A stretch of 64,000 nt of DNA, taken from positions 62,001-126,000 of the forward strand of contig NZ_JAAQPI010000014.1 of the NCBI RefSeq assembly GCF_011683955.1, written 5' to 3'. Numbering within the stretch: the stretch's first letter is position 1; each line of letters starts with the position of its first letter. Made by a program: the position numbers and the translations under genes. Shown here in pieces: positions 1 to 33,699 of this stretch. The notes beneath the pieces were generated by a model. The model was not told where the DNA came from. It saw only the letters and a program-made list of their open reading frames with translations, and made no database searches. The DNA comes from Pseudomaricurvus alkylphenolicus (lineage in GTDB: Bacteria; Pseudomonadota; Gammaproteobacteria; Pseudomonadales; Cellvibrionaceae).

Positions 1-3
1 AAC

Positions 4-2103
4 ATGATTTCAATGCTTGAAAGTCTCTGGTGCGATGACACGGCCAGTTCGATGACGGCCCCGGAGCAATTGCAGTATCGCTCCAACTTGCTGGGTTCCG
101 ACCTGCGCATCACCAATTACGGTGGCGGCAATACCTCGGCCAAAATCGCCACCAACGACATACTCAACGGCGAATCCACTCGGGTACTCTGGGTAAAAGG
201 TTCAGGGGGGGACCTGGGCTCCATTGACCTGTCGGGCTTTGCAACGCTGTATATGGACAAGCTGCAACAACTTAAGTCCCTCTACCGGGGGCTGGAGCAC
301 GAAGATGAAATGGTGGGCTACCTGCCCCATTGCACCTTCAACCTGAACGGCCGCGCCGCCAGCATTGATACCCCTCTGCACGCCTACATTCCTCACGATC
401 ATGTTGATCACATGCACCCGGATGCGGTCATTGCCCTTGCCTGCACCAAAGACAGCCGTGCCCTGACCGAAGAGATCTTTGGCGGTGAATTGGGGTGGTT
501 GCCATGGCAGCGCCCCGGCTATGATCTCGGCCTGAAACTGGAGAGCTTGTGCCTCGAGCGCCCGGATATCAAAGGTATCGTCCTCGAAGGACACGGCCTG
601 TTCACTTGGGGGGATACATCAAAATCCTGTTATCTGAACACTCTGAAGGTCATTCAAAAGGCGGCTGATTGGTTGGAAAACAACAACACCAGGGTGGCGT
701 TTGGGGGGGCGGCGTATGACAACGCCTTGTCGGCGTCGGAACGCGAGGCCGTGGCCGTCAAACTTATGCCACTGATTCGAGGCAAGATATCCAGCGATCA
801 ACGTAAGATCGGTCATTTCAACCAGTCTGACGAAGTGTTAACGTTCGTTAACGCCAACGATTTGCATTCATTGGCGGCGCTGGGCACTTCCTGCCCGGAT
901 CATTTTCTGCGTACAAAAATACGTCCGCTGGTACTGGATTTTAATCCGGCAGTCGACGATTTGGCTCTGGAACTGGATCGTTGCGCTGAGGGGCTGGATC
1001 AGCAGCTGGAGGCTTATCGGGCCGACTACGCAGCCTACTATCATCGCTGTCGGCGCGACAACAGTCCCGCCATACGTGACGCGAACGCCGTAGTTTATCT
1101 GGTTCCGGGTGTGGGAATGATCACCTTCGCTAAAGACAAGGCCACAGCCCGTATTGCCGGCGAGTTTTATGTCAATGCGATCAATGTGATGCGGGAAGCC
1201 AATGGTGTAAGCGAGTACATCGGTCTGGACGAGCAAGAGGCCTTCGACATCGAATATTGGCTGCTGGAAGAAGCCAAGTTGCAGCGCATGCCCACGCCCA
1301 AGTCCCTGGCCGGCCAAGTGGCTTTTATCACCGGTGGGGCGGGTGGCATAGGCAAGGCCACTGCGCGTCGCTTCCTTGATGAGGGTGCTTGTGTTGTGTT
1401 GGCTGACATCGACACGGAAGCGTTGTCAAGCGCAGAACAGGAGCTCGCCGCCGAGTATAGTCCGGACGTGGTGACTACAGTGCGCTGTGACGTGACCTCT
1501 GAAACCAGTGTCAGTGCGGCCATGGCCTCCAGCGCCATCGCCTTTGGTGGCATTGATATCGTTGTTTCCAATGCCGGTATTGCCAGCTCCGCGGCATTGG
1601 AAGACACCAGTCTTGAACTCTGGAATCGAAATATCAATATTCTCACCACGGGATACTTTATCGTCAGTCGAGAAGCGTTCAAATTGCTGAAAGCGCAGAA
1701 CATCGGCGGTTCCTATGTGTTTATCGCCAGTAAGAACGCCCTTGTGGCTTCACCCAATGCCTCCGCATATTGCACCGCCAAAGCGGCGGAGGTTCAGTTG
1801 GCTCGCTCCGTGGCGCTGGAAGGTGCACCGCTGGGCATACGCTGTAACGTGGTTAATCCCGACGCGGTGTTGCGAGGGTCCAAAATCTGGACGGGTAAAT
1901 GGCGAGAGGAGCGCGCTGCTGCCTATAATATGGATCACCAAGAACTGGAGGAGCACTATCGCAATCGCAGCCTGCTTAAGCGCAACGTCTTCCCACAAGA
2001 TATCGCCGAGGCAGTGTACTTCTTTGCTTCCGAGCAGTCTGCCAAATCGACTGGCAATATTATCAATGTTGATGCAGGCCACGCGCCGTCATTCACTCGC
2101 TGA
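4..2103 (+). CDS. Bifunctional rhamnulose-1-phosphate aldolase / short-chain dehydrogenase
   Basis: Two enzymes are fused in 699 residues. The N-terminal half is a class II aldolase, with a His-rich metal site around residue 131 (HDHVDHMHPD) and a second site in EGHGLFTWG; it should split L-rhamnulose-1-phosphate into DHAP and L-lactaldehyde. The C-terminal half is a Rossmann short-chain dehydrogenase with a glycine-rich loop from about residue 439 (ITGGAGGIG), an NAG motif and the catalytic pair Y589/K593 (YCTAK); in RhaEW-type proteins this half oxidises lactaldehyde to lactate. Full length for the family. It starts 3 bases into the window, so its promoter and any upstream partner are outside. 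It is followed after 12 bases by the rhamnose isomerase, with a GAGGGAGAAG-type ribosome site between. No rhamnulokinase is visible here and one would be expected just upstream. Confidence 0.93.
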   Translation: MISMLESLWCDDTASSMTAPEQLQYRSNLLGSDLRITNYGGGNTSAKIATNDILNGESTRVLWVKGSGGDLGSIDLSGFATLYMDKLQQLKSLYRGLEHEDEMVGYLPHCTFNLNGRAASIDTPLHAYIPHDHVDHMHPDAVIALACTKDSRALTEEIFGGELGWLPWQRPGYDLGLKLESLCLERPDIKGIVLEGHGLFTWGDTSKSCYLNTLKVIQKAADWLENNNTRVAFGGAAYDNALSASEREAVAVKLMPLIRGKISSDQRKIGHFNQSDEVLTFVNANDLHSLAALGTSCPDHFLRTKIRPLVLDFNPAVDDLALELDRCAEGLDQQLEAYRADYAAYYHRCRRDNSPAIRDANAVVYLVPGVGMITFAKDKATARIAGEFYVNAINVMREANGVSEYIGLDEQEAFDIEYWLLEEAKLQRMPTPKSLAGQVAFITGGAGGIGKATARRFLDEGACVVLADIDTEALSSAEQELAAEYSPDVVTTVRCDVTSETSVSAAMASSAIAFGGIDIVVSNAGIASSAALEDTSLELWNRNINILTTGYFIVSREAFKLLKAQNIGGSYVFIASKNALVASPNASAYCTAKAAEVQLARSVALEGAPLGIRCNVVNPDAVLRGSKIWTGKWREERAAAYNMDHQELEEHYRNRSLLKRNVFPQDIAEAVYFFASEQSAKSTGNIINVDAGHAPSFTR

Positions 2104-2115
2104 GGGAGAAGTTAT

Positions 2116-3411
2116 ATGAACAACTCACGCATCAATCAAACTCTGATCGACGAGCATAACGAATCGTGTCTGGCACATCTGCGGGAGGACTACGAACATC
2201 TGGCCACCCAGCTGACTCGCTGCGATGTGGATATCGAGACCATTACCGAGAAGGCGCAGGCCTTCGAGATAGCGGTTCCTTCCTGGGGAGTCGGCACCGG
2301 CGGTACCCGCTTTGCCCGTTTCCCGGGGGAAGGCGAGCCACGCAATATCTTCGAAAAGCTGGAAGATTGCGCTGTAATCAACCAATTATCCCGCTGCACG
2401 GCCAGTGTTTCTCCTCACTTTCCCTGGGATACCGTGGATGATTTCACCGAGCTGAAAGCGTTCTCCGATCATTGCGGTTTACACTGGGATTCCATTAATT
2501 CCAATACCTTTCAGGACCAGCCAGGGCAGCCGCATTCCTACAAATTTGGCAGCCTGACTCATACCGATGCAGCGGTACGTGATCAAGCCATTGCGCACAA
2601 TCTGCAGTGCATTCAGTGGGGGCAGCAGCTCGGTTCGAGACGCTTGACCGTGTGGGTGGGGGATGGTTCCAACCACCCCGGCCAACAGCATTTCCAGCGT
2701 GCCTTTGAACGTTATCTCGACAGCATGAAGCGCATCTATGCCACTCTGCCGGATGATTGGGAGATGCATATTGAACACAAAATGTTTGAGCCGGCATTCT
2801 ATTCCACTGTTATACAGGATTGGGGCAGCAATATACTGGCGGCCTTGGAGCTTGGAGACAAAGCAAAGTCTCTGGTGGATCTGGGCCATCATGCTCCGAA
2901 CGTCAATATTGAAATGATTATCTCACGTCTGATTCAGTTCAAAAAGCTGGGTGGATTCCATTTCAACGACAGCAAATACGGTGACGATGATCTTGATAGT
3001 GGCTCGCTGCATCCCTATCAGCAGTTCCTGATCTTCAATGAGCTGGTGGATGCCGAGGCCCGCAACCAGGAGGACTTCAATCCTTCCTATATGCTGGATC
3101 AGTCCCACAATGTCACCGACCCGATTGAGAGCTTGATCAATTCTGCCATTGAAGTTCAGCGCTCCTATGTCAAGGCACTGTTGGTCGATCGCGCCGCTCT
3201 CAATGGCTATCAGGACAGTAACGATGCGCTCTTGGCGAGCAACACACTCAAGGCGGCGTTTAATCTTGATGTGAATCCCATATTGGCGATGGCCCGTTAT
3301 CGACAGAGCGGCGCCATTGATCCGCTGCAGGTTTACCGGCAATCGGGTTATCGTCAACAGGTTTCCAAGGTCCGGCCGGAGATCACTGGGTCCTCATCCG
3401 GCATCGTCTAA
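2116..3411 (+). CDS. rhaI: L-rhamnose isomerase, RhaI type
   Basis: 431 residues, matching the length of the Rhizobium-type L-rhamnose catabolism isomerase rather than E. coli RhaA. It converts L-rhamnose to L-rhamnulose in the cytoplasm. The xylose-isomerase-like TIM barrel shows the expected acidic and histidine metal-site pieces: EHKMFEPAF in the centre, LGHHAPNVNIE, then GGFHFNDSKYGDDDLD and a late MLDQSHNV. It is co-transcribed with the aldolase/dehydrogenase (12-base gap) and is followed after 68 bases by the GH106 rhamnosidase, so free rhamnose is produced and consumed by adjacent genes. Assigned as isomerase with high confidence; the choice of rhamnose over a related 6-deoxyhexose rests on context as well as sequence. 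Confidence 0.92.
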   Translation: MNNSRINQTLIDEHNESCLAHLREDYEHLATQLTRCDVDIETITEKAQAFEIAVPSWGVGTGGTRFARFPGEGEPRNIFEKLEDCAVINQLSRCTASVSPHFPWDTVDDFTELKAFSDHCGLHWDSINSNTFQDQPGQPHSYKFGSLTHTDAAVRDQAIAHNLQCIQWGQQLGSRRLTVWVGDGSNHPGQQHFQRAFERYLDSMKRIYATLPDDWEMHIEHKMFEPAFYSTVIQDWGSNILAALELGDKAKSLVDLGHHAPNVNIEMIISRLIQFKKLGGFHFNDSKYGDDDLDSGSLHPYQQFLIFNELVDAEARNQEDFNPSYMLDQSHNVTDPIESLINSAIEVQRSYVKALLVDRAALNGYQDSNDALLASNTLKAAFNLDVNPILAMARYRQSGAIDPLQVYRQSGYRQQVSKVRPEITGSSSGIV

Positions 3412-3479: not shown

Positions 3480-6400
3480 ATGTTGAGAAAACGACTGAAT
3501 CGTAGTTTTTATCAAAGAATTCGATGGGTCCTGTTAGCTATCATCTGTCTTGTTTTCTGTGGTTGCCTCAGTCAAACCAAAAGCCCGGAAAGCCGACTAT
3601 ACGAAGGCTTTTCCGAGCCACCCAATGGAACCAGGCCTCTGGTCTGGTGGCACTGGATGAATGGCAATGTTACCAGGGAAGGTATCGAAGCGGACCTCCT
3701 GTGGATGCATCAAGTGGGCATTGGAGGTGTGCAAAATTTTGATGCCAGTCTGAATACGCCTCTGATTGTCGATGAGCGAGTCAGCTACATGACCCCTGCC
3801 TGGCAGGAATTGTTCAACTTTGCCCTTGATGAGGCAGGTAAATACAACTTTGAATTTGGTATTGCAGCGTCACCTGGCTGGAGTGAAACGGGCGGGCCCT
3901 GGGTTGAACCCCGAGACGGGATGAAAAAGCTTGTCTGGCGCGAAGTGACGGTCAGTGCCGAGTCACAGATGCCAATCGTGTTGCCAGACGTGCCAAATAC
4001 CACGGGGCCGTTCCAGGACATGCCTGTTCAACCGGAACCTTTTAGCCCGCCTTTGGCCAGTAACAAGAAACATCCTCATTACTATGAAGACGTCGCGATT
4101 CTCGCATACCCCACTGCAATGCCGGCAGAGATTGAGGTAACAGCTGTCGTCGATTCCAATGGAGAAAAGATAGAAGCCGAGACTCTGTTTGATGGCAGCT
4201 ATGCTGACAACTTGACATTACCCGTGACGGGCGCTCAGCCCTATTGGCTTGAGTTTAAGTTTGAACGGATTGAAGCGGTACGATCCGTATCGGTATCAAT
4301 GCCACCAGTATCCATGTTTCTACCCTCACAACTACACCCGACGCTGGAAGCGAGTGAAGACGGTAAGAACTTTCATGCGGTGGCCAGCTTCGAGCTGGGT
4401 ACCAGCCCACAGTATACGCTCTCATTCCCGCAGGTGCAGGCCAAGGCTTTTCGCCTTGTTTTCGAAGCGGTACAGGGTGGAGGTTTTGAGCTGCCGTCAT
4501 CAGCTGCACCGGGTGCCGTTGATCCAATGGCGGGATTGGCGGCAATGATGGCCTCTCAGGGCACCAAGCTCGAGGTGACCGAGGTCAGCTTTAGTCGCGC
4601 GCCCCGCGTACATCGAGGCGAAGAGAAGGCGGGCTTCGCGATCCATGAAGACTACTTCAGTATCAACTCGCAGTCCAAAGAGCGGGGTGTAGAGAAGCAC
4701 CAGGTGTTGAATTTGACCTCTCACTTTTCAGAAACGGGGAGATTGAACTGGCGACCACAGCAGGGGACCTGGCGCATCATTCGGCTCGGCTACTCTTTGA
4801 CAGGAAAGGAAAACCATCCTGCGACTCCAGAAGCCACCGGTTTGGAAGTGGACAAATATGATGCCGACGCGGTCAGGCGGTATATCAATACCTACCTGGA
4901 CAATTACCTTGACGCCGTTGGAGACGACAAGTTAGGGGCCGAAGGCATTCAAGCGGTGCTTAACGACAGTATAGAAGTGGGAGCTTCTAACTGGACACCA
5001 TCCATGGCAACTGAGTTTCAACACCGTCGAGGCTATGAACTCACCCCATGGCTACCCGTCTTAACCGGTGTTATTGTGGAAAGTTCAGAAGCTTCGGATG
5101 CTTTCTTGTACGATTACAGGAAGACACTGTCGGAGTTACTGACCGAAAACCACTACGCAACGATCACCAAAGAACTGCATAAGCGGGGCCTGAAACACTA
5201 TGCGGAAGCCTTGGAGAACGGGCGGCCGACTCTGGGAGATGGCATTGCCATGCGCAAGAGCGCTGACATCCCGATGGCTGCCATGTGGTCCTTTGATACC
5301 GAAAATAACATTGGACCGAAGCCTCAATACTGGTCGGACATTCGAGAGGCCGCATCGGTTGCCCATATCTACGGCCAAAATCTGGTTGCAGCAGAATCGC
5401 TGACTTCTGCCATGTCACCCTGGGCTTTTTCTCCCAGGGAATTGCAGCCCATGATTGATATGGAGTTTGCATTAGGCGTCAATCGACCCATTATCCATAC
5501 ATCTGTTCATCAGCCACTTAGTGAGAAAGCGCCGGGGTTGAGCCTTTTTGTGTTTGGCCAATATTTCAACCGTTTGAATACCTGGGCTTCCGTGGCCAAG
5601 CCCTGGGTAGACTATATTGCCCGTAATTCCTATATGTTACGGCAAGGTCGTCACGTTGCCGACGTTGCCTATTTCTATGGTGAAGAAGCCCCTCTTACAG
5701 CGCTCTTTAACGATGAGCCGCCAAAAGATGTTCCCTTGCAGAATGGATTTGACTATGTCAATGCCGACGTTATTGTCAATGAAATGACGTACGACGGTCA
5801 GCACCTGATCACAACTGGCGGTGCCCGTTACAAAACACTGTACCTGGGTGGCAGTTCCCGCTACATGACCTTACCCGTGCTGGAAAAACTGGCAAACATG
5901 GTTCGCAGTGGCGCCTGGATTATTGGTAATAAGCCGGTTGCCAGCCCTTCTTTGTCCGATGACCCACGTGCGTTCGATCAACTGGCCGAAGCGCTCTGGT
6001 CTGGCAGTATCGGCAAGGGACGTGTTGTTGCAACAGCAGATCTGCAGGCCGGATTGGATGCTCTGGGTATTGCTCCGGATTACACTTTCACCAACCCGAA
6101 CTCAGATACCACCTTAATGTTTGTTCATCGGACGCTGCCTCAAGGTGAAATTTACTTCTATACAAACCGCAAGAATCGGCATGAAACAATCGAATTCAGT
6201 TTTCGGGTGGCTGGCAAGCGACCAATGCACTGGAATGCTGAGACCGGCAAGGTCATGCCGCTCTCTTACCGCACAGTCGGTGATCGCACAATCATTCCCC
6301 GTCGATTGCTTCCTTATGAATCCGGATACATCGTTTTCATCAACGATACAAATGTCAATGAGCTGAATATTGACGATGTAGCGCCGATAACCCTGGCAAC

Positions 6401-6884
6401 CCTTTCAAACAAGTGGAGCGTGAGTTTTCAGTCCAATCGTGGTGCACCAGAAGGGGTTCGCAAGATGGCCCTGGGCAATTGGGCAGAGAGCGATCAGGGC
6501 GGGATCAAGTACTTTTCCGGCACCGCTACTTATCGCACTAAAATACATGTTGAGAGCGACTGGGTCCATCAACACGATTCCATCTCCCTGAATCTGGGCA
6601 GTGTTGGGGATATCGCCAGAGTCAGGGTTAACGGGCAGTCCGCAGGTGTCGCCTGGAAGCCACCTTACAAAATTGATATCGCGCCGCACCTGCGGGTTGG
6701 CGAAAATGACATTGTGGTCGAGGTGACCAACCTGTGGGTAAACCGCCTGATTGGCGACAAGCAACCGGGAGTCGAGAAAGCCTACACTTACACCACCATT
6801 GATACTTATCATCCGGATGCGCCCCTGCGGCCTTCAGGACTGATGGGGCCGGTCACGCTGGAGGCTAGTACGCCATCTTCGTGA
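3480..6884 (+). CDS. GH106 alpha-L-rhamnosidase, exported
   Basis: 1134 residues. It should hydrolyse terminal alpha-L-rhamnose from glycosides (plant rhamno-glucosides or rhamnose-bearing polysaccharides). The N-terminus has a basic stretch, a hydrophobic core and a Cys at the end (LVFCGC), so it is probably a lipoprotein or otherwise exported. The GH106 signature begins near residue 55 (PLVWWHWMNGNVT). Candidate catalytic glutamates are E499 (NDSIEVG) and E639 (AAESLTS), the two positions expected for the inverting GH106 mechanism. A C-terminal beta-sandwich with a galactose-binding-like fold (VNGQSAGVAWKPPY) closes the protein. The start ATG has an AGAGG site. It sits directly behind rhaI in the same direction. 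The family is clear; the natural substrate is not readable from sequence. Confidence 0.92.
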   Translation: MLRKRLNRSFYQRIRWVLLAIICLVFCGCLSQTKSPESRLYEGFSEPPNGTRPLVWWHWMNGNVTREGIEADLLWMHQVGIGGVQNFDASLNTPLIVDERVSYMTPAWQELFNFALDEAGKYNFEFGIAASPGWSETGGPWVEPRDGMKKLVWREVTVSAESQMPIVLPDVPNTTGPFQDMPVQPEPFSPPLASNKKHPHYYEDVAILAYPTAMPAEIEVTAVVDSNGEKIEAETLFDGSYADNLTLPVTGAQPYWLEFKFERIEAVRSVSVSMPPVSMFLPSQLHPTLEASEDGKNFHAVASFELGTSPQYTLSFPQVQAKAFRLVFEAVQGGGFELPSSAAPGAVDPMAGLAAMMASQGTKLEVTEVSFSRAPRVHRGEEKAGFAIHEDYFSINSQSKERGVEKHQVLNLTSHFSETGRLNWRPQQGTWRIIRLGYSLTGKENHPATPEATGLEVDKYDADAVRRYINTYLDNYLDAVGDDKLGAEGIQAVLNDSIEVGASNWTPSMATEFQHRRGYELTPWLPVLTGVIVESSEASDAFLYDYRKTLSELLTENHYATITKELHKRGLKHYAEALENGRPTLGDGIAMRKSADIPMAAMWSFDTENNIGPKPQYWSDIREAASVAHIYGQNLVAAESLTSAMSPWAFSPRELQPMIDMEFALGVNRPIIHTSVHQPLSEKAPGLSLFVFGQYFNRLNTWASVAKPWVDYIARNSYMLRQGRHVADVAYFYGEEAPLTALFNDEPPKDVPLQNGFDYVNADVIVNEMTYDGQHLITTGGARYKTLYLGGSSRYMTLPVLEKLANMVRSGAWIIGNKPVASPSLSDDPRAFDQLAEALWSGSIGKGRVVATADLQAGLDALGIAPDYTFTNPNSDTTLMFVHRTLPQGEIYFYTNRKNRHETIEFSFRVAGKRPMHWNAETGKVMPLSYRTVGDRTIIPRRLLPYESGYIVFINDTNVNELNIDDVAPITLATLSNKWSVSFQSNRGAPEGVRKMALGNWAESDQGGIKYFSGTATYRTKIHVESDWVHQHDSISLNLGSVGDIARVRVNGQSAGVAWKPPYKIDIAPHLRVGENDIVVEVTNLWVNRLIGDKQPGVEKAYTYTTIDTYHPDAPLRPSGLMGPVTLEASTPSS

Positions 6885-6957
6885 GACCAGGCTTTCCGGG
6901 TTGACAATTGGGCATCAAACAACGGCTTACCGTTCAGTATCAATGGAGGTAGTGTCA

Positions 6958-7800
6958 GTGGTCCGCAAAGCTCGTTTAAAGTGTTGCCAGAAGTTGCTGG
7001 TGGCCATTGGGTTGTCGACCCTTACTCTGTGTCAGGCAACGGGCGATGAATTGCGAACACTGCCGCAGATGCATTGGCCCGCGTATATGGCGCAACCCTG
7101 GATTGGCACCACAAACGATGGTGGATTCAGTGGAATTCTCTATGATGCCATGAGTTGCCTTGTCGGCTCTTTGGGCTTTGATCTAAGAGTGGAAGATGTC
7201 CCTATCGGAAGATTGTTTTCAAATTTGGCCAATGGGTTCGGAGATGTATCGGTTGTACTCCTCACGCGAGACGCCAGGTTTACAGAGCTTGGAAAGGTTG
7301 CGGATATCTTGCCGGTTGATTTGTTTGAGGAGTCGTTGGTCATGGCAATGCGTAGCGAGGACGACTACTCTATCGGCCAATTGGCGCGCGTTCCTATCGG
7401 CGGTGCCAATTTGCCAGTGCCTGTCAGGCAAAGGCTCGGAATCAATAGTTCGAAGTTCAGGGCGTACAACAGTGAAGTGGCTATCGTAAAATCACTGTTG
7501 CGTCAACGAATAGATGTCGCTGTTGGATTACACCGGACCTTGAAATATCATGCAGACCGATTGGGGGTGTCCGGGTCCGTTACCATAAAGTGGTTGGTTC
7601 CTGAATCCATGGTTTTTCGGTTGGCGGTATCAAAAAAATTTCAAAGCAAACACCCTTCCGTGATTGATTCTATGAGTCGTCGGTTGCAGGAGTTAAAACA
7701 AAATGGAGAGTTCCTGGCCATTCAAAGAAGACACCTAAAGCCGGAACCACCAACTGGGGGATATCGATCAGGTATTTGTACGAAATCCTCTTCAATATGA
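6958..7800 (+). CDS. Orphan family-3 type periplasmic solute-binding protein
   Basis: About 280 residues with the fold of amino-acid-type (SBP family 3) periplasmic binding proteins: an N-terminal signal (KLLVAIGLSTLTLCQA), a binding-lobe start (PWIGTTNDGGFSGILYDAM) and a conserved VGLHRTLKYHADRLG region. Possible starts are TTG 6901, ATG 6943 and GTG 6958. GGAGGT at 6945-6950 lies 7 bases before GTG 6958, so that start is chosen; it also puts basic residues directly before the hydrophobic core. No permease or ATPase gene is adjacent, so this may be a sensor or an orphan binding protein rather than part of a local ABC transporter. The ligand is unknown. It lies between the rhamnosidase and the sugar symporter. 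Confidence 0.7.
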   Translation: MVRKARLKCCQKLLVAIGLSTLTLCQATGDELRTLPQMHWPAYMAQPWIGTTNDGGFSGILYDAMSCLVGSLGFDLRVEDVPIGRLFSNLANGFGDVSVVLLTRDARFTELGKVADILPVDLFEESLVMAMRSEDDYSIGQLARVPIGGANLPVPVRQRLGINSSKFRAYNSEVAIVKSLLRQRIDVAVGLHRTLKYHADRLGVSGSVTIKWLVPESMVFRLAVSKKFQSKHPSVIDSMSRRLQELKQNGEFLAIQRRHLKPEPPTGGYRSGICTKSSSI

Positions 7801-11311: not shown

Positions 11312-11334
11312 TGGATTCTCCCTATCGGACCTGA

Positions 11335-13362: not shown

Positions 13363-13391
13363 CACAGCCTTAACGAATTCAAGGAGATCTG

Positions 13392-22285: not shown

Positions 22286-22368
22286 CTCCTCGATTCAACA
22301 GCGTGATCCAATGCTCTCTCTTAGTGTTGGGTCTATGTGGTGCATCTCCCTATCCGGAAGACAAAGTT

Positions 22369-27143: not shown

Positions 27144-28181
27144 ATGACCGATCTATTCAATAGTGACCACATTGATACGGCTCTGACGGCTTCGACCACT
27201 TCTTTTCGGCTTATGCACGAAGCCCTGTGGGATTTCCAGATAAATCCTTACGATGTCTATCAGGACGCCGGTCTAGGGTCTGATTTTCTTGATGATCCGG
27301 AGCGGCGCGTGTCCATCGAAGCATTCAGGGCTTATTGGGCCGCTATCGAGAGTCGATCTCAAAACCCCAATATTGGCCTGTTGTTGGCCGAACATGCGCA
27401 CATCAGTCCCATCAATGCTCCGATGATGCTGTTGCAGGCCAGCAATACCTTTGGTGAAGGGCTGCAGCGCTTTATACGCTTTCGTCAGATCATGGACCCA
27501 CTCTATGAATCGACTCTGGTGCAGGAGGGCGACACGGCAATCTTCTGTTTCGACCTTCAGCACACCATGTTTCGCCAACGTATGGAATGCCTGTGTGTGT
27601 TTTTCTGCCGTTTTTTCCAAATGGCAACGGACGATCTGTGGCAGCCCAGGCGTATTTGTTTTCAACACCCCGCGCCAGACTCGCTGCAGGAGCACGAACG
27701 CATTCTGCGTTGTCCCATTGAATTCAACAGGGATCACTACAGCATTTACTTTGATGCCGGGCTGCTGCAGCACACACTCTTCACCCGCAGCCCGGGTTTT
27801 TGTGCATACAATGAAAAGTTTGCTGCCACGCTATTGGAAAACGTGGCAACGACTGGCCTGGTGGCCAGTGTCAGACGTACGTTGGCGTCGATCCTGGAGT
27901 TTGGCGACATATCCCTGGATAAAGTGGCGGAGGTACTGAATCAGGAGCCCAATGTACTGCAGGCGCGTTTACGAGACATAGGTTGCCCTTTTAACGAAGT
28001 GCTTGATAGCGTTCGTAAAGAGATCGCCACGCGCATGGTGATCGACACCAATGATTCTTTTCAAGACATCGCCTATGTGACGGGCTACTCTGCACTGCCG
28101 AATTTTTACCGGGCTTTTAAACGCTGGCATGGCATGACGCCCGTGGCTTACCGGCAAGAGGCTAGCGGCCAGCATTGCTGA
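27144..28181 (+). CDS. AraC-family regulator, OruR type
   Basis: 345 residues: an N-terminal arabinose-binding-type domain as in OruR/ArgR-like regulators (FQINPYDVYQDAGLGSDFL) and a C-terminal HTH pair ending KRWHGMTPVAYRQE. It has the same architecture as the AraC protein at 37716 but is clearly a distant paralogue. It probably controls the adjacent receptor and the convergent aromatic-acid symporter. Its last 20 bases overlap the 3' end of that symporter gene on the other strand. The ribosome site is weak. Confidence 0.87.
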   Translation: MTDLFNSDHIDTALTASTTSFRLMHEALWDFQINPYDVYQDAGLGSDFLDDPERRVSIEAFRAYWAAIESRSQNPNIGLLLAEHAHISPINAPMMLLQASNTFGEGLQRFIRFRQIMDPLYESTLVQEGDTAIFCFDLQHTMFRQRMECLCVFFCRFFQMATDDLWQPRRICFQHPAPDSLQEHERILRCPIEFNRDHYSIYFDAGLLQHTLFTRSPGFCAYNEKFAATLLENVATTGLVASVRRTLASILEFGDISLDKVAEVLNQEPNVLQARLRDIGCPFNEVLDSVRKEIATRMVIDTNDSFQDIAYVTGYSALPNFYRAFKRWHGMTPVAYRQEASGQHC

Positions 28182-29508
28182 TTGACAGATTGTATCTGGT
28201 CCTGGGGGCTGGAGCCCCGCACTTCCACACCACCACGGCCGCCAGCAAGAAGGCACTGGAGAAACTGGCGTACAGCAGGGCCGCCGACACGGACAAGTCC
28301 AGCATCAATCCGGCCAGTATCGGCGAGCAAATGGCACCGATTCTGCCAATGCCGATTGCCCATCCCAGTCCGGTCGCACGTATGGCCGGGCTGTAGATTG
28401 ATGTGCCCAGGGCATACATACCCGCGATGCAGCCATTGGCCACAATTCCGATCAACGTCGCGACGCCGAGCGCCAGCATCAGATTTGATGCCGTAAATCC
28501 GAATATGACCAGCAGAGATGATGTCAGAACCATGAAGGCTGACAGCAAATAGTGCAATTGATAACGCGAAGACAGGGTCCCCACCAGCGCAGTACCCAGG
28601 ATGCCGCCAAGGCTCAGCAGCGCGCCCCCAGTAACGCCCAGTTCTGTGGAGAGGCCGAACTCTACCAGCAGCCTGGGAGTCCAGCTCATAATAAAGTAAA
28701 AGCCAAACATAACCAGGAAAAAACTTGCCCACAGGCGTAGTGTCTGCCACATTAATCCGGGTGCTAAAAGTTGGCCAATTGAGTGGTGCAAGGCTTGTTT
28801 TCCGCTCTGTTGCTGCGCCGGTAGCGCCTCTATCGGTTGTTGGCCGATAGAATCTGCGAGCTTGTTTATCCGTCGCAGGGCATTTCTCGGTTGGCGGGCC
28901 AACAGGAAATCGATCGATTCCGGCAAGCGCCACAGGATCAGCGGCAGCGTTGCCAGCGTGGCGACTCCCCCGGACAGGAACACCCAGCGCCAGCCGAGAT
29001 GCGCGAGTATCTGTGCGGCTGCCAAACCTCCGATCGTTGCGCCGAGGGCGTATCCTGTGGATTGCAGGCTGACGGCGAGGCCTCGCCATCGCTTGTTGGC
29101 GTATTCGGCTGCAATCACATTGCTGCTGGCCAGAATGCCGCCAATGCCAAGACCGGTAATGATCCTGAGCGCGCCTAGTTGCAACGGTCCCTGCGCATAG
29201 GCGGAAAGTAACATGCCCAGTCCGGCAGTTGACACGCAGGTCAGTATCAAGGGACGGCGACCAAACTGGTCGGCCCAAGGGGCAACAAATAGCGCTCCTG
29301 CAGCCATGCCGAAGAGACCGGCACTTAATAACAGGCCGGTTTCAGCGCCACTCAGATTCCATTCCTCTGCAACTGATGTTGCAGTAAATGCCATCACCAA
29401 AACATCAAAACCATCCAGCATATTTAGGATGACACAGATTCCAATGGCGATTTTTTGAAACCGGCTTAGCCTGCCATTATCAATGGCAGCACGGATATCA
29501 TTATTCAT
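28162..29508 (-). CDS. Aromatic acid:H+ symporter (AAHS family MFS)
   Basis: 448 residues, 12 membrane segments. The family hallmark DGFD lies in the first helix (MLDGFDVLVMAFTAT), with the loop 2-3 motif WADQFGRRPL and the PES motif (LPESIDFLLARQP) that begins the central loop. AAHS members (PcaK, BenK, MhpT) import benzoates, hydroxybenzoates or phenylpropanoids. In this locus it would bring in cinnamates or benzoates, or recapture leaked intermediates. Tail-to-tail overlap of 20 bases with the AraC gene. The TonB receptor at 29617 lies upstream on the same strand, so both may be one transcript. Confidence 0.9.
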   Translation of the reverse strand: MNNDIRAAIDNGRLSRFQKIAIGICVILNMLDGFDVLVMAFTATSVAEEWNLSGAETGLLLSAGLFGMAAGALFVAPWADQFGRRPLILTCVSTAGLGMLLSAYAQGPLQLGALRIITGLGIGGILASSNVIAAEYANKRWRGLAVSLQSTGYALGATIGGLAAAQILAHLGWRWVFLSGGVATLATLPLILWRLPESIDFLLARQPRNALRRINKLADSIGQQPIEALPAQQQSGKQALHHSIGQLLAPGLMWQTLRLWASFFLVMFGFYFIMSWTPRLLVEFGLSTELGVTGGALLSLGGILGTALVGTLSSRYQLHYLLSAFMVLTSSLLVIFGFTASNLMLALGVATLIGIVANGCIAGMYALGTSIYSPAIRATGLGWAIGIGRIGAICSPILAGLMLDLSVSAALLYASFSSAFLLAAVVVWKCGAPAPRTRYNLSISNAGR

Positions 29509-29616: not shown

Positions 29617-31830
29617 TCAGAAGGAATAATTCAGGGTCAGTCCTGAGGTTCTTGGAGGCAGCAGTGTGCGTGTGGTCACGCGCCCGCTAGCCAGAGCGTA
29701 GTTTCCGCCCTCTACCAGTTCGTCTCCCAGATTGCGACCCCATGCCAACAGACTCCAGCTTTCATCGGCGGAGGTGTACTTCAGCGTCAGGTCGTAAAGT
29801 GTATAGTGGTCCTGGTTAAGGAGTAGGTTGTTGAATTCGCTGAAATAGTGTTTGTCTTTGAACGAGACATCCAATCCAAGTGTGAATTGTCCGCCGCCGT
29901 TTAGTGGGATGTCATATTCTGCGTGCAGATTCCAGGCCAAATCCGGCGATTGACGAGCGGAGTTGCCCTTGATATCCACCAGCACCTCTCCGCCAACGTT
30001 CTCTACGTTGGTGGGGTCTACCGTCAAGAAACTGCCGAACTCCGTGTCCATGATCGAAACAGAGGCGTTCATGCGAAGGCGCTCCGTGGCGGCCCAGAAC
30101 GCCTCCAGTTCAAGGCCTTGTGCTTTCTGTGTAGTGGCGTTTTCGAATACGGTGGTAAAACCGGTGGGACCACCAACCAATGTACGGTCAAGCTGAATAT
30201 CGTCCACTTCATAGCGGTAGAGGGCGGCGTTGATGACAAGACTGCCATCGGCCAGTGTTGTTTTGAGCCCGAGTTCATGGTTGATGATGCTCTCCGGCTC
30301 GATAATGTTGGCGGCGTTTGCACCCAGTTGTCCAGTACCGGCCTTGAAACCTTCCGAATACGTGTAGTAGACCAGTGTATCGGCGTTTGCATGCCACTCC
30401 AGACCCGCCTCATTCGTGTAATCGCTGAAGCGGCCCTTGTCCTGGAATAGCGGCAGGTTCGCGTCCATAACCGATAGACGCGTAGGTCCAGCCCAGATGA
30501 CGTTGTCGTTTAGTATTTGTCGTTCGTCGTGCGTATAGCGCCCGCCCAACTTCAAGCTGAGTTGTTCACTGAGATCATAGGAGGCATTCCAGAAAACGGC
30601 CCAGGACTCTACCTCGCCTTCCCCCGTAAGATTGACCCGCTTTTCGGCTTGCCCATTGTAGGGGTTCACATAGAGACCGCCCTCAGCAACGCCACCCACG
30701 TTATTTTCGTGGTAGAGTTCTTCCTTAAAGTAATACAAACCAGCAATTGCTCTGAGACTTTCGCCAGAGAACGAAAGTTGCAGTTCCTCACTGATTTGCT
30801 CAGACTCGAAGACAAATTCCTGGATGGTACTGTTGATCACCGCGGAAGCATCGAGGTCCTGAATGTTGAGCATGTCCGTGTGGCGGGCATTCAATATGTT
30901 TTTCAGGTCCCAATTCTCAGCGAGTGCCCAATCCAGGGTGAGGCTCAGTGACGCTGTGGTGCGGTCATTCACCGGGTCAACATCAGAGGCGTAGTTTCGG
31001 GCGCCGCCGGCAAAACCGCCAATACCGTTGGCAACAGCGTTGGTTGGTAAATCGTCTCCGAGGAAGGTCTCGCGTTTGTACAGGAAGGCGTTGGAGGCAT
31101 CATTCTCCCGTCCATATTCCGCTGCGACATAAAGATCAACGTCCTCTGATACTTGAATGGCCAACTGCGCGCGTAGTGCTTGTCTGTCACTGTCTGATAT
31201 ATCACTTCCTGTGACTTCGTTTTTCCCATAGCCTCCGCGTTGAGTGCTGTGCAGCGATATCCGGCCTTGCACCTGGTCGGTTATCGCGCCCCCAACCGCA
31301 GCTTCTGTCTGCACCAGGTCATAGTTGCCTAGAGTAAGTTTCAAATCGCCCGTCAACTCTTCCGTGGGTTTTTTGGCAATCAGGTTGATGGTGCCGCCGG
31401 TGGCGTTGCGACCATAAAGGGAGCCCTGGGGGCCACGCAGAACTTCCGCGCGCTCCAGATCAAAAAAGGAAAAAAGTTGCGCTCCGGGCTGGGAGATCAC
31501 TGCTCCATCCACATACATGGTAACGGACGGGTCAACGTTGGCGAACACGGTGTTCAGGCCCAATCCCCTCATGAACAAATTGGCATAGCCAAAGGTGGTA
31601 CCAATGGTAACGCTGGGGGCGAAGTTTTGCAGAGCTTTAATGTCACTGACACCGGCATCGCTGAGTCGGTCAGAGGTTAGTGCAGTAACGGCTGTGGATA
31701 CGTCTTGCAAGCTTTGTTCCCGTTTTTGGGCAGTTACGGTAATTTCTTCAATGGCAACTGCGCTGGCTTGCTGCATGCCCAGTGCGGTGATAAACATGGC
31801 CGACAGTGTAGTGATGGGGGTGTATCTCAT
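29617..31830 (-). CDS. TonB-dependent outer-membrane receptor
   Basis: 737 residues with signal peptide (MFITALGMQQASAVA), the class entry EEITVTAQKREQSLQDV, the plug motif RAEVLRGPQGSLYGRNAT and a barrel ending LNYSF. It is divergent from the ferredoxin/P450 pair across a 316-base regulatory gap and reads toward the aromatic-acid symporter gene. This placement argues for an aromatic or methoxy-aromatic ligand rather than a sugar, but that is inference. No STN signalling domain, so it is not itself a transcriptional transducer. Confidence 0.92.
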   Translation of the reverse strand: MRYTPITTLSAMFITALGMQQASAVAIEEITVTAQKREQSLQDVSTAVTALTSDRLSDAGVSDIKALQNFAPSVTIGTTFGYANLFMRGLGLNTVFANVDPSVTMYVDGAVISQPGAQLFSFFDLERAEVLRGPQGSLYGRNATGGTINLIAKKPTEELTGDLKLTLGNYDLVQTEAAVGGAITDQVQGRISLHSTQRGGYGKNEVTGSDISDSDRQALRAQLAIQVSEDVDLYVAAEYGRENDASNAFLYKRETFLGDDLPTNAVANGIGGFAGGARNYASDVDPVNDRTTASLSLTLDWALAENWDLKNILNARHTDMLNIQDLDASAVINSTIQEFVFESEQISEELQLSFSGESLRAIAGLYYFKEELYHENNVGGVAEGGLYVNPYNGQAEKRVNLTGEGEVESWAVFWNASYDLSEQLSLKLGGRYTHDERQILNDNVIWAGPTRLSVMDANLPLFQDKGRFSDYTNEAGLEWHANADTLVYYTYSEGFKAGTGQLGANAANIIEPESIINHELGLKTTLADGSLVINAALYRYEVDDIQLDRTLVGGPTGFTTVFENATTQKAQGLELEAFWAATERLRMNASVSIMDTEFGSFLTVDPTNVENVGGEVLVDIKGNSARQSPDLAWNLHAEYDIPLNGGGQFTLGLDVSFKDKHYFSEFNNLLLNQDHYTLYDLTLKYTSADESWSLLAWGRNLGDELVEGGNYALASGRVTTRTLLPPRTSGLTLNYSF

Positions 31831-32146: not shown

Positions 32147-32467
32147 ATGCCAATCGTAACCTTCCTGAATAGCGACGGGAGTGCCCACAACGTAGATGCC
32201 CCGGCGGGTAGCAGCCTGATGGAGGCAGCCGTCGACAATCTGATACCGGGGATTCTGGCCGAATGTGGCGGGGCTTGTGCATGCGCAACCTGTCATTGTT
32301 ACGTCGATGAGCAGTGGCTTGGCAAAGTGGCCGTGGCCGGGGAAGAGGAGAATCAACTGCTGTCGGCCGTACTGGATCAGCGCAGCAATAGTCGACTCAG
32401 CTGCCAGATCAACCTCTCTGAGGAGTTGGACGGCCTGGTCGTCCACCTGCCCGAGTCTCAATACTGA
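32147..32467 (+). CDS. [2Fe-2S] ferredoxin, adrenodoxin type
   Basis: 106 residues. Cluster ligands follow the adrenodoxin/putidaredoxin spacing C40-x5-C46-x2-C49 and C86 (ECGGACACATC, then LSCQI). Additional Cys at 44 and 51 are non-ligand. It sits 23 bases before a class I P450 and is its obvious electron donor. The electron-supplying ferredoxin reductase is not in this window. The R. palustris CYP199A system uses a ferredoxin of this class. Confidence 0.93.
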   Translation: MPIVTFLNSDGSAHNVDAPAGSSLMEAAVDNLIPGILAECGGACACATCHCYVDEQWLGKVAVAGEEENQLLSAVLDQRSNSRLSCQINLSEELDGLVVHLPESQY

Positions 32468-32490
32468 ATTCCAACAAAAGGATAATACCC

Positions 32491-33699
32491 ATGCAAACTG
32501 AGGCCCATTATCAAGGAGCGCCAATACTGGACGTGGACCCGTTCTCCACAGAGTTCCTGACCGATCCATACCCATTCCATGAGCAACTGCGTGAGGCAGG
32601 TCCTGTGGTCTGGATTCCAAAGTACAAAGTGTGGGCAATGGCCCGCTATGAGGAAGTACGCCATGTGCTCGACGACTGGGAAACCTTTTGTTCCAGTGCT
32701 GGAGGTGGGCTGAGCAATTTCAATCAGGAGAAGCCCTGGCGCCCACCAAGCATCATTCTGGAGGCGGATCCTCCCATGCACAACAGAACCAGGGGCGTAT
32801 TGGCTCCATTGTTGAATCGGGCGGCACTGAACAAGTTGCGTGAGGGTTTTGATGAAAAGGCGAAGCTTCTGGTCGACAGCGCCCTTGCCCGGCAAGAGGT
32901 TGATGGGGTCAAAGATATTGCCGAAGTATTTCCCCTACAGGTATTTCCCGATGCGGTAGGGCTGCAGAAAGAGGGGCGTGAGAATCTATTGCCCTATGCC
33001 AACATGGCGTTCAATGCCTTTGGGCCTCGAAACGAACTGTTTGAAGAGGCGTTCAAAGAGGCCGAAAAGGTGACTGACTGGATCATGAACCAATGCCGCC
33101 GCGAAGCGCTCAGTGAGGATGGGTTTGGGGCGCAAATCTATGCCGCCGCCGATGCCGGCGAGATCAGCGAACAGGAGGCCGGAATGTTGGTACGCTCACT
33201 GTTGACCGCTGGTCTGGATACGACCATGTACGGTATTACCAGTGCCTTGTACAGTTTTGCGAGTTTTCCCGAACAGTGGTCCCTAATTCGTGAGAATCCT
33301 GCACTGCTGCGCCCCGCATTTGAAGAGGTTGTACGGTTCCAGTCTCCGGTGCAGACTTTCTTTCGCACCACTACCTGCAAAACCCAAGTGGCGGGTGTGC
33401 CGATCGATGCCGATCAAAAAGTGCTACTGTTTCTCGGTGCCGCTAATCGTGATCCGCGTCGCTGGGAGGCACCGGATACGTTCGATGTGCGCAGGCGTGC
33501 GGTCGGCCACGTTGGGTTTGGTCATGGCATTCACGTCTGTGTCGGGCAGATGGTGGCGAGACTGGAGGCGGAGTCTGTGTTGACAGAGCTGGTAAAGCGT
33601 GTGGAACGGATTGAACTCAATGGTGAACCGGTCCGGCGCTTGAACAATACCTTGCGCGGTCTTTCAAGTCTGCCTCTGAAACTGTATGCAGCCGATTAG
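32491..33699 (+). CDS. Cytochrome P450, CYP199A-like
   Basis: 402 residues. Heme ligand C350 in FGHGIHVCVGQ, oxygen-binding I-helix AGLDTT near residue 240, ExxR in FEEVVRF. Several stretches are close to what I recall of CYP199A2/A4 of Rhodopseudomonas: EKPWRPPSIILEADPP, LLPYANMAFNAFGP, FQSPVQTFFRTTT, LFLGAANRDPRRW and NNTLRGLSSLPLKL. Those enzymes O-demethylate 4-methoxybenzoate and oxidise other para-substituted benzoates and cinnamates. Here it could demethylate 4-methoxy-cinnamate or -benzoate from methoxylated plant phenolics, or hydroxylate coumarate. Subfamily assignment rests on memory of those motifs. Confidence 0.9.
   Translation: MQTEAHYQGAPILDVDPFSTEFLTDPYPFHEQLREAGPVVWIPKYKVWAMARYEEVRHVLDDWETFCSSAGGGLSNFNQEKPWRPPSIILEADPPMHNRTRGVLAPLLNRAALNKLREGFDEKAKLLVDSALARQEVDGVKDIAEVFPLQVFPDAVGLQKEGRENLLPYANMAFNAFGPRNELFEEAFKEAEKVTDWIMNQCRREALSEDGFGAQIYAAADAGEISEQEAGMLVRSLLTAGLDTTMYGITSALYSFASFPEQWSLIRENPALLRPAFEEVVRFQSPVQTFFRTTTCKTQVAGVPIDADQKVLLFLGAANRDPRRWEAPDTFDVRRRAVGHVGFGHGIHVCVGQMVARLEAESVLTELVKRVERIELNGEPVRRLNNTLRGLSSLPLKLYAAD

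Follow-up and report, generated by a model that had tools for sequence, protein, structure and literature searches.

Does one stretch of a bacterial genome hold the genes for using flavonoid conjugates as a whole, sugars and aglycone alike? This question is raised by Pseudomaricurvus alkylphenolicus (genome size, 8.88 Mb), a member of the Cellvibrionaceae, a family that includes marine species. The window analyzed here spans 64,000 nucleotides (contig NZ_JAAQPI010000014.1, positions 62,001 to 126,000), and an initial annotation had described its positions 1-33699 as a candidate complete locus for the use of flavonoid rhamno-glucosides. Our results suggest that this region, extended by about 6.6 kb on the left, is probably a utilization locus for conjugated flavonoids. 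As judged from homology, it can with fair confidence be read as a relative of the fde kind, with flavonoid glycosides, and perhaps also sulfates, as its predicted substrates. Its genes likely serve to remove rhamnose, glucose, and perhaps sulfate from flavonoids of plants, followed by cleavage of the flavonoid skeleton. The aromatic half is kin to a known pathway of soil bacteria; what is new is its combination with the removal of sugars and sulfate.

Gene content and borders

The gene families listed in the initial annotation, from rhamnosidase to aromatic operon, were all recovered in profile searches, each in a long open reading frame that matched its family (Table 1). The claim of completeness did not hold, because four further genes are found left of the window, which starts at C5:62001: those for a rhamnulokinase-type kinase, a DeoR regulator, an arylsulfatase, and a cupin of the fde type (G000:C5:55397-60154). 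The kinase, cupin, and sulfatase had been overlooked, as had sugar genes beside fde clusters elsewhere. Likewise, the count of three TonB-dependent receptors is right for 1-33699, but the whole window has five, with two more (35167, minus strand; 41647, plus strand) past position 33699.

Table 1. Features of the window, positions 1-33699 (G000, genome of the window; G002, same genus; other G and L numbers are our handles for genomes and loci)
Feature	Position	Strand	Evidence
RhaD, fused rhamnulose-1-phosphate aldolase/short-chain dehydrogenase	4..2103	+	NF006189 1156.9 bits (cut-off 634), TIGR02632 1020 bits; 81% to G002 C3
RhaI, L-rhamnose isomerase, rhizobial type	2116..3411	+	TIGR02629 689.6 bits (cut-off 646.75); 82% in G002 C3
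GH106 alpha-L-rhamnosidase (predicted)	3480..6884	+	PF17132 983 bits (cut-off 29); best solved structure 6q2f (RHA-P) 1084.8 bits
Weak periplasmic solute-binding-like protein	6901..7800	+	PF00497 20.4 bits, under cut-off 26.4; no NCBIfam match
GluP/FucP-type sugar symporter	7864..9096	+	TIGR01272 340.5 bits (cut-off 203); FucP 244 bits, under cut-off 280
FdeE-type FAD monooxygenase, proposed flavonoid 8-hydroxylase	9230..10357	+	50-54% to three Herbaspirillum loci; tree grouping
LysR regulator, FdeR position, divergent from FAH	10406..11344	-	39-42% to three Herbaspirillum loci; 76% to G002 divergent LysR
Candidate LysR operator TGTATC-N9-GATACA	11422..11442	.	LysR/FAH gap; arms kept in G002 counterpart
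FAH-family hydrolase	11548..12537	+	PF01557, PF18288; 56-57% to Herbaspirillum L140, L127
Cyclase-family hydrolase	12565..13362	+	PF04199; 61-62% to Herbaspirillum; 81% to Pseudomonas CIP-10 plasmid
Alpha/beta hydrolase, DHPON-hydrolase type, proposed C-C hydrolase	13392..14549	+	Best solved structure 2jbw; GVSLG at 231; 76-79% to Herbaspirillum
FdeC-type VOC extradiol dioxygenase	14571..15506	+	67-69% to Herbaspirillum; H158, H217, E268 (L036 numbering) invariant
Small Rieske [2Fe-2S] protein	15513..15887	+	PF00355 50.4 bits; 45-54% to Herbaspirillum
GST1, MaiA-like, proposed isomerase of ring-cleavage product	15895..16698	+	TIGR01262 96.9 bits, under cut-off 171; 54-64% in G001, G002, G359, G772 fde loci
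SDR, NAD-dependent epimerase/dehydratase family	16753..17712	+	PF01370; 60% in G002
GST2	17705..18388	+	PF02798; 74% in G002
AraC-type regulator	18466..19593	-	PRK10572 207.1 bits, just under cut-off 208
TonB-dependent receptor 1	19883..22237	+	PF00593; 44% to receptor adjoining GH3 in G002
GH3 beta-glucosidase-like enzyme, with a signal peptide as judged by eye	22303..24399	+	PF00933; closest among solved structures, beta-glucosidase 9ul7 (402.6 bits); 57% in G002
TonB-dependent receptor 2, candidate flavonoid-conjugate receptor	24610..27108	+	70% to receptor inside G002 fde run; 39% in G001 fde run
AraC-type regulator, locus membership uncertain	27144..28181	+	PF12625
MFS transporter, locus membership uncertain	28162..29508	-	PF07690
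TonB-dependent receptor 3, locus membership uncertain	29617..31830	-	PF00593
Cytochrome P450, possible accessory enzyme	32491..33699	+	PF00067; 51% to P450 inside G359 fde locus

The genes from RhaD to the FAD monooxygenase are separated by 12, 68, 16, 63, and 133 bases, and those from FAH to GST2 by -8 to 54 bases. The FAD gene, the genome's only close FdeE relative, ends the RhaD-RhaI-GH106-solute-binding protein-FucP run, apart from its pathway partners, and the GH106 gene sits 2.3 kb upstream of it in this one run of same-strand genes. Since the 133 bases after the FucP gene leave room for a separate promoter, a single transcript from RhaD to the FAD gene is not certain.

Kinship with fde-type aromatic pathways

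The system most like the aromatic genes is the naringenin meta-pathway of Herbaspirillum seropedicae SmR1 (FdeA-J, FdeR), for which we used loci from three congeners as stand-ins for FdeA-J/FdeR. Identity in all three was 76-79% for the hydrolase, 67-69% for the VOC dioxygenase, 50-54% for the FAD monooxygenase, 45-54% for the Rieske protein, and 39-42% for LysR; in the two loci that were long enough, it was 56-57% for FAH, 61-62% for the cyclase, 67-69% for the cupin, and 41-43% for SDR. The resemblance to fde in the initial annotation is borne out, with the nine products compared all having counterparts in Herbaspirillum and Burkholderia. Specifically, fde-like clusters with counterparts occur in Herbaspirillum sp. 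ASV7, Herbaspirillum sp. Sphag64, and Burkholderia anthina, and the monooxygenase and dioxygenase find their counterparts in such clusters rather than in a different characterized pathway. All six accompanying genes (hydrolase, cyclase, cupin, FAH, SDR, and Rieske) are present, the cupin outside the window. Gene order is rearranged relative to those clusters: hydrolase-VOC-Rieske alone is kept, with the FAD gene relocated to the end of the rhamnose run and the cupin to a place beside the sulfatase. In ASV7, exactly one gene separates the VOC and FAD genes, as with FdeC (Hsero_1005) and FdeE (Hsero_1007) in H. seropedicae (PMC10755750).

The FAD monooxygenase aligned over nearly its full length to the enzymes of the three Herbaspirillum loci, and a tree of 107 rows placed it among the FdeE-like enzymes. 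It carries GxGxxG at 12 and the GD motif as GDCVHATTPHLASG at 288, with Cys in place of the Ala of the published motif. The FxGxxxH motif was not found in this enzyme, and FdeE is likewise reported to do without it. By score, the genome's next match was 26% identical, and there was also a stretch of 74 residues at 43%. An enzyme from a Bradyrhizobium plasmid, possibly an IfcA, was 34% identical to the monooxygenase and branched outside the FdeE-like group. In the VOC dioxygenase, a His-His-Glu triad was invariant in all 12 aligned sequences; going by type I extradiol enzymes, we take H158, H217, and E268 as candidate metal ligands.

Other parts set this locus apart from fde. Two GSTs, TonB-dependent receptors, GH106, GH3, and rhamnose catabolism are added, and neither the GSTs nor TonB receptor 2 had a match in the three Herbaspirillum loci. 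Conversely, references for the transporter genes of the known layout (MFS, "transporter," DUF1302, DUF1329, MMPL, and YCF48) had no match among 52 proteins of the window and left flank (E 1e-3), save one weak MFS. Such genes vary across 86 fde loci (MFS in 59, MMPL in 41, and "transporter" in 22), and we regard them as accessory rather than defining for an fde-type pathway. The isoflavone (ifc) system of Variovorax is also similar in its 8-hydroxylation followed by VOC ring cleavage, its Q93NG6-like hydrolase, and its cupins (IfcA/B/D1/D2; PMC11069340). Yet the monooxygenase here groups with FdeE-like enzymes, in a comparison that included only a possible IfcA, and, going by the description of ifc, this locus has sugar genes, GSTs, and TonB receptors in addition.

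The divergent LysR at the FdeR position was confirmed by its place and its identity to the Herbaspirillum regulators, and it is the likely aglycone sensor. The inverted repeat TGTATC-N9-GATACA had no second site in the window within 3 mismatches.

Sugar and sulfate genes, and alternative readings

The GH106 match spans positions 2-742 of the 743 in the profile, and the closest solved structure, RHA-P of Novosphingobium sp. PP1Y, is matched over residues 33-1131. By eye, the N terminus resembles a lipoprotein signal. RHA-P, described as a single rhamnosidase, is cited as active on flavonoid glycosides. Clustered glycosidases that strip sugars from plant metabolites are described for saponins and glycoalkaloids in Sphingobium RC1 and Glutamicibacter S2 (GH3, 39, 78, and 106; GH2, 3, and 78), with steroidal rather than flavonoid aglycones (PMC10653915, PMC9597252). 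Saponins, too, are GH106 substrates (PMC10653915). The left-flank arylsulfatase has the C/S-x-P-x-R maturation motif as CSPTR at 79, and its best solved structure is the arylsulfatase 1hdh (475 bits). Of 16 gammaproteobacterial fde loci searched, 7 had sulfatases within the cluster or close to it, but in the present genome there were 31 sulfatase matches overall.

GH106 occurs in 3 of 58 relatives, two of which (G000 and G002) also have a close VOC dioxygenase. It was not found in the genomes G001 and G023 (the latter of the same family) or in those parts of G126 and the other gammaproteobacterial fde loci that were read. In the same-genus genome, contig C7 (72-98 kb) carries GH3, TonB receptor 1, AraC, cupin, sulfatase, GST2, SDR, TonB receptor 2, GST1, FAD monooxygenase, Rieske, VOC, FAH, divergent LysR, and GH106. 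No hydrolase or cyclase adjoins VOC in that run; such a pair (59%/56%) lies about 20 kb further left. The GH106 of C7 is only 37% identical to that of the window, and the closest rhamnose genes (RhaK 57%, RhaD 81%, RhaI 82%, and GH106 68%) lie on another contig, C3, beside a different aromatic operon. GH106 together with a GH3 above 30% was found in 2 of 17 loci (G000 and G002 C7). Elsewhere, GH3 directly follows the FAD monooxygenase in Ramlibacter paludis L084, lies near it in Massilia yuzhufengensis L109, and is present on the Pseudomonas CIP-10 plasmid with fde genes. The fde stretch of Duganella lactea L116 has RhaK (45%) and RhaD (67%), and no FAD monooxygenase was found in the part examined.

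An argument can be made that two unrelated neighbors adjoin here: a locus for rhamnose polysaccharide or oligosaccharide (GH106, RhaD, RhaI, kinase, and FucP) and an fde-type aglycone locus. Some GH106 enzymes, such as BT_0986, act on plant cell-wall polysaccharide, the rhamnose block of G002 sits on a different contig from the fde locus, and the 133-base gap points the same way. We nevertheless consider this unlikely. The FAD gene stands apart from its partners, on the same strand and in the same run as RhaD to FucP; GH106 and GH3 accompany fde genes in the same-genus locus too; the GH106 is the only family 78/106 rhamnosidase found in the 8.88-Mb genome, with no GH78 match; and no polysaccharide lyase family was found among the 23 scanned proteins of 1-33699. 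The RHA-P-type GH106 and the same-genus locus with GH106, GH3, and fde genes lend weight to the earlier proposal that sugar and aglycone are both used.

More improbable still is the same architecture serving another phenol with a resorcinol or phloroglucinol ring, such as a dihydrochalcone, isoflavone, xanthone, or coumarin. Asebogenin is a dihydrochalcone. A seagrass contains a rhamnosyl-glucoside of asebogenin (PMC9324380), FdeE and IfcA are 36.3% identical and do not have the same range of substrates (PMC11069340), and the monooxygenase here shares only 50-54% identity with its Herbaspirillum counterparts. Against this, the VOC dioxygenase and hydrolase are 67-79% identical to fde-type ones, and FdeE itself takes flavanones, flavones, flavonols, and isoflavones (PMC11303751). 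We give very little credence to detoxification of flavonoids with sugars as the real nutrient: daidzein does inhibit non-degrading Variovorax and an ifcA mutant (PMC11069340), but the full set for ring cleavage and hydrolysis exceeds what detoxification needs.

Proposed route for conjugated flavonoids

What we show directly is the gene set with its order, the homologies, and the linkage conserved in relatives; from these we infer substrates, step order, enzyme location, transport, and regulation. For utilization of conjugated flavonoids, the TonB-dependent receptors at 19883 and 24610 would carry rhamno-glucosides, and perhaps sulfates, across the outer membrane. Exported GH106 and GH3 would take off rhamnose and glucose, and the left-flank arylsulfatase would take off sulfate, freeing A-ring hydroxyls. 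Rhamnose would enter via the GluP/FucP-type symporter and pass through RhaI, the kinase, and fused RhaD. The FAD monooxygenase would hydroxylate ring A of the aglycone (C8 in FdeE and IfcA), and the VOC dioxygenase would cleave the resulting catechol, in line with published FdeE/FdeC and IfcA/IfcB chemistry (PMC11303751, PMC10755750, PMC11069340). Further breakdown of the product would fall to the C-C hydrolase, cyclase-type hydrolase, cupin, GSTs, FAH, and SDR. Regulation would rest with the divergent LysR as aglycone sensor and with DeoR and AraC on the sugar side.

In the sources at hand, the bacteria described as breaking down flavonoids aerobically via fde or ifc live in soil or in association with plants; here, a relative of marine Cellvibrionaceae has the fde core in physical linkage with genes for removing sugar and perhaps sulfate. 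In two Phyllospadix species, phenolics are described as mostly sulfated, largely at position 7 (PMC11840769). We tentatively suggest, with less than even confidence, a dedicated marine fde-type locus, in which seagrass flavonoid sulfates and rhamno-glucosides enter whole via TonB receptors and periplasmic desulfation and deglycosylation free the 7-OH before hydroxylation and ring cleavage. On this view, gammaproteobacterial fde clusters would have gained sulfatase, GH106, and GH3 more than once, with both the sulfatase-cupin pair and the fde run under control of the divergent LysR. If the locus indeed serves conjugated flavonoids, it would tie seagrass and plant-litter phenolics to specific bacterial genes, offer an FdeC-type VOC with GST, TonB receptor, and sulfatase as markers for seagrass microbiomes, and provide an enzyme set for flavonoid deconjugation and 8-hydroxylation. 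The genome also carries five LigB-family dioxygenases and one intradiol dioxygenase, which could take a B-ring acid.

Organization of the locus

Our analysis supports the proposal of the initial annotation that positions 1-33699 of the window form a locus for the use of flavonoid rhamno-glucosides, and family profile matches recovered every gene family it had listed in the place it described. In the organism's own genome (G000; 8.88 Mb, 70 contigs), of which the window is C5:62001-126000, the sugar genes and the aromatic genes lie side by side (see table). Membership is less certain for the MFS gene, TonB receptor 3 and the P450 that make up the remainder to 33699 than for the genes preceding them; the P450 shares 51% identity with one inside the fde locus of a relative (G359). 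A scan for promoters and terminators gave fewer matches than shuffled sequence and was uninformative.

With the genes of the left flank (L049, G000:C5:42001-62000, directly left of the window), the rhamnose pathway is complete. Its 557-residue protein matched nothing in Pfam, and nothing in the PDB at an E value below 0.24; it is 74% conserved at the same place upstream of RhaD in the same-genus genome G002. It is a candidate for an unnamed rhamnose permease.

Features of the window and of neighboring stretches, with positions counted within each stretch
Feature	Stretch	Position	Strand	Remarks
Run 1: RhaD, RhaI, GH106, SBP-like, GluP/FucP-type symporter, FAD monooxygenase	window	4-10357	same strand	gaps 12, 68, 16, 63, 133 bases
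GH106 alpha-L-rhamnosidase	window	3480-6884		in run 1
FdeE-type FAD monooxygenase	window	9230-10357		in run 1
LysR gene	window	between runs 1 and 2	divergent from run 2	
TGTATC-N9-GATACA	window	11422-11442		candidate site in LysR-FAH gap
Run 2: FAH, cyclase, hydrolase, VOC, Rieske, GST1, SDR, GST2	window	11548-18388	same strand	gaps -8 to 54
Alpha/beta hydrolase	window	13392-14549		in run 2
FdeC-type VOC dioxygenase	window	14571-15506		in run 2
AraC gene	window	after run 2		then the next four in order
TonB receptor 1	window	19883		
GH3, beta-glucosidase-like	window	22303-24399		
TonB receptor 2	window	24610		
Second AraC gene	window			
TonB receptor 3	window	29617	-	
ECF sigma factor, FecR, TonB receptor with STN domain, alpha/beta hydrolase, MFS gene	window	39850-47594		
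EAL response regulator, second response regulator, 1637-residue CHASE/PAS hybrid kinase, solute-binding protein	window	48651-56944		
AMP-dependent ligase, thiolase, FadB-like protein	window	58445-63560		beta-oxidation set
VanA-type Rieske oxygenase	L049	2385-3539		O-demethylase-like
PDH E1-like and E2-like 2-oxoacid dehydrogenase pair	L049	9083-13109		between LysR/amidohydrolase pair and sulfatase-cupin
Weak copy of candidate site	L049	13279-13299	-	3 mismatches; about 100 bases before sulfatase start
Arylsulfatase	L049	13397-15007	+	
Cupin	L049	15102-15680	+	72% identity to cupin of a Diaphorobacter fde cluster
DeoR	L049	15751-16599	-	
FGGY kinase	L049	16715-18154	-	taken as rhamnulokinase
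557-residue protein	L049	18151-19824	-	permease-like by eye; divergent from RhaD
Operon with molybdopterin enzyme, iron-sulfur partner, VOC, FAH	L050 (G000:C5)	2758-8481		about 32-37 kb left of window
513-residue FAD monooxygenase, VOC, FAH, amidohydrolase, esterase	L056 (G002 C3)	11493-18057		next to rha/GH106 block

An fde-type aromatic half

The fde core, which serves naringenin degradation in Herbaspirillum seropedicae, is already known. FdeE (Hsero_1007) 8-hydroxylates naringenin and other flavonoids, and cleavage of ring A involves FdeC (Hsero_1005) (PMC11303751, PMC10755750). IfcA and IfcB carry out the equivalent steps on isoflavones, with FdeE and IfcA sharing 36.3% identity (PMC11069340). 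The fde genes are not mentioned in the available part of PMC4440368. For comparison, we used three Herbaspirillum loci from outside H. seropedicae, namely ASV7 (L140), Sphag64 (L127) and a MAG (L136, cut short). Identities to these, in that order, were 79/76/79% for the hydrolase, 67/69/67% for the VOC dioxygenase, 54/50/54% for the FAD monooxygenase, 48/54/45% for the Rieske protein and 42/39/41% for LysR; against L140 and L127 only, they were 61/62% for the cyclase, 67/69% for the cupin, 56/57% for FAH and 43/41% for the SDR. The GSTs and TonB receptor 2 had no match in the three loci. The order hydrolase-VOC-Rieske is common to the window and the Herbaspirillum loci, but in the window FAH and the cyclase precede it, and the FAD gene and cupin are relocated. 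Transporter genes of known fde layouts were not found among the 52 proteins of the window and left flank.

A tree built from 107 monooxygenases joins the window enzyme to that of a second cluster in G002 (74%; 100/100) as a pair that falls inside the FdeE-like part (95/89), with a Bradyrhizobium plasmid enzyme (34%) outside; bootstrap values were unsettled and several rows long, and finer placing is not trustworthy. The hydrolase has as its nearest solved structure 2,6-dihydroxypseudooxynicotine hydrolase (2jbw). The ifc hydrolase is described as of this kind, and deleting its gene left daidzein degradation unaffected (PMC11069340).

Other ring-cleavage pathways (biphenyl, homoprotocatechuate, salicylate) are unlikely, as the VOC and FAD enzymes scored far under the NCBIfam cut-offs and the solved structures nearest to them are only distant kin. 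None of VOC, FAH, the cyclase and the hydrolase exceeded the cut-off of any NCBIfam family, and the FAD monooxygenase reached only the unnamed subfamily PRK06847. GH106 and the rhamnose genes might belong to a locus for ulvan or another rhamnose polysaccharide, which is less likely because the 23 scanned proteins of the region included no lyase family. The flavonoid glycoside reading is in keeping with the closest solved structure of GH106, 6q2f (1085 bits across almost the full protein, versus 389 bits for 5mqm). This is RHA-P from Novosphingobium PP1Y (PMC9253678), cited as a rhamnosidase of flavonoid glycosides in a paper that also gives saponins as the substrate of another GH106 (PMC10653915). 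Four thermophile enzymes freed rhamnose from naringin, with low activity where measured (PMC6828813). For GH3, the closest solved structure (9ul7) is named only "beta-glucosidase."

Linkage of sugar and aromatic genes

The own genome holds a single GH106 and a single close FdeE relative, and 2.3 kb separates the two genes, which lie on one strand. After-the-fact arithmetic puts the chance of a random pair in 8.88 Mb lying this close on the order of 1 in 1000. As a second rhamnosidase, GH78 was found in none of 19 genomes, the own genome included. GH106 occurs in 3 of 58 relatives (G000, G002 and G030), two of which carry a close VOC. We read 17 gammaproteobacterial fde loci (G000, G001, G002-C7, G002-C3, G023, G055, G126, G211, G237, G359, G446, G447-C57, G459, G463, G490, G496 and G772; those of G211 and G496 on short contigs), and only G000 and G002-C7 had both GH106 and a GH3 at over 30% identity.

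More broadly, 530 candidate stretches in the genome_contigs set encode relatives of the VOC alignment. We used the best 80, ranked by similarity to a query from Burkholderia and thereby leaning to Burkholderiales, and added six plasmid loci. Among these 86 loci, at 30% identity or more, we counted hydrolase in 80, FAD monooxygenase in 80, VOC in 77, FAH in 65, LysR in 63, cyclase in 54 and cupin in 43, all of them undercounts because overlapping open frames hid genes such as the L140 cyclase. Sugar-related genes were rare in the same 86 (best 80 of 530 plus six plasmid loci), for which the references did not include GH78: GH106 in one (L100, as partial, Pfam-positive frames in a MAG), GH3 in four (L084, L109, L077, L037), and RhaK with DeoR in two (L103 and L116, the latter with RhaD at 67% and no FAD monooxygenase in that stretch). 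In L084, from Ramlibacter paludis, GH3 directly follows the FAD monooxygenase. The close VOC is also patchy in gammaproteobacteria, being present in 5 of 144 family genomes (E <= 1e-40) and, at E <= 1e-80, in 20 of 390 genomes from the order and 3 of 369 from the class, with the window's genome included each time. It lies at 198,488-199,411 of its contig in G023, a "same family" genome, and no close VOC was found in the same-genus genomes G003-G005.

The same-genus genome G002 holds a related locus at 72-98 kb of contig C7, with GH3 (57% identity to the window genome's protein), TonB receptor (44%), AraC (29%), cupin (77%), sulfatase (60%), GST2 (74%), SDR (60%), TonB receptor (70%), GST1 (64%), FAD monooxygenase (50%), Rieske (53%), VOC (78%), FAH (73%), divergent LysR (76%) and GH106 (37%). 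In this run, VOC is flanked by neither a hydrolase nor a cyclase; such a pair (59%/56%) lies at 52-54 kb of the contig. The GH106 proteins in the fde loci of G000 and G002-C7 are not close to each other. The close rhamnose genes of G002 are on contig C3 (RhaK 57%, RhaD 81%, RhaI 82%, DeoR 70%, GH106 68%), apart from the C7 fde locus, so the rhamnose block is movable. On C3 the block adjoins a different aromatic operon (L056), which includes an FAD enzyme, a VOC and an FAH of its own and is possibly a second phenolic-rhamnoside pathway.

What appears new is that a Cellvibrionaceae-type genome joins the fde core to genes for rhamnose catabolism, a GH106, a GH3, TonB receptors, GSTs and a sulfatase, a combination for which we found no report in the open-access literature as far as its available text extends. 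The locus is thus a variation on a known system. Clustered glycosidases acting on a plant metabolite are already known from saponin systems (PMC10653915, PMC9597252).

Sulfatase, regulation and neighboring genes

The left-flank sulfatase, whose nearest PDB match is arylsulfatase 1hdh (475 bits), carries a CSPTR motif and precedes the cupin, which its 60%-identical G002 counterpart also adjoins. Among 16 gammaproteobacterial fde stretches (the 17 read minus G002-C3; VOC-bearing G197, G209, G240, G267, G312, G426, G453 and G475, and second matches in G447 and G211, lie outside this set), seven had a sulfatase match (G000, G002, G359, G446, G459, G463, G490), that of G359 being a 292-residue piece without the motif. 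Among the best 80 of 530 VOC relatives, two named loci had one (L088, L092), and L109 has in addition a short Pfam-positive frame. As decisive proof, the link is weakened by the 31 sulfatase matches in the own genome (22 of the other 30 passed the motif filter, 11 of them at 39-54% to the linked enzyme) and by a split tree. In that tree, with bootstrap unsettled, G000 pairs with G002 (92/99, below the star threshold) and four other fde-linked sulfatases form a separate group (99/98), so that the tree does not unite the fde-linked sulfatases.

In two Phyllospadix seagrasses, most flavonoids carry sulfate, chiefly at position 7 (PMC11840769). IfcA showed no activity towards isoflavone glycosides or 4',7-dimethoxyisoflavone in a test that covered no sulfates (PMC11069340). 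Taken together, a sensible reading is that the 7-OH would be unmasked ahead of hydroxylation. Glycosylation is described as uncommon in seagrasses (PMC11840769); the string "rhamnos" was absent from the available text of PMC11840769 and PMC11810914, and rutin and a rhamnosyl-glucoside have been reported from a seagrass (PMC9324380). The window organism itself may be marine.

A LysR regulon spanning the locus appears unlikely. The candidate site, whose arms are kept in the counterpart gap of G002, is the sole match in the window within 3 mismatches; the weak copy near the sulfatase may be chance, because a match also turned up in 16 of 200 shuffled versions of the 20-kb stretch around it, and a neighboring G002 stretch (L053, with the cupin and most of the sulfatase) has no match. 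This weak site may serve as a lead only.

Several neighboring genes could extend the chemistry. VanA-type Rieske oxygenases, found also near the fde loci of G001, G772, L084, L101, L107 and L109, could open methoxyflavonoids, and the 2-oxoacid dehydrogenase pair could use a keto acid of the pathway. In the L050 operon, the molybdopterin enzyme has a match to PF21423, the large-subunit-like domain of pyrogallol hydroxytransferase, and the VOC shares 40% identity with that of the window over 138 residues; a TonB receptor, a hydrolase and an amidohydrolase lie further on. Since flavonoid ring A is phloroglucinol-like, pyrogallol/phloroglucinol chemistry beside a flavonoid locus is suggestive. Within the window, the genes around the ECF sigma factor look like a separate signalled-uptake cassette, and the beta-oxidation set could serve a hydroxycinnamate.
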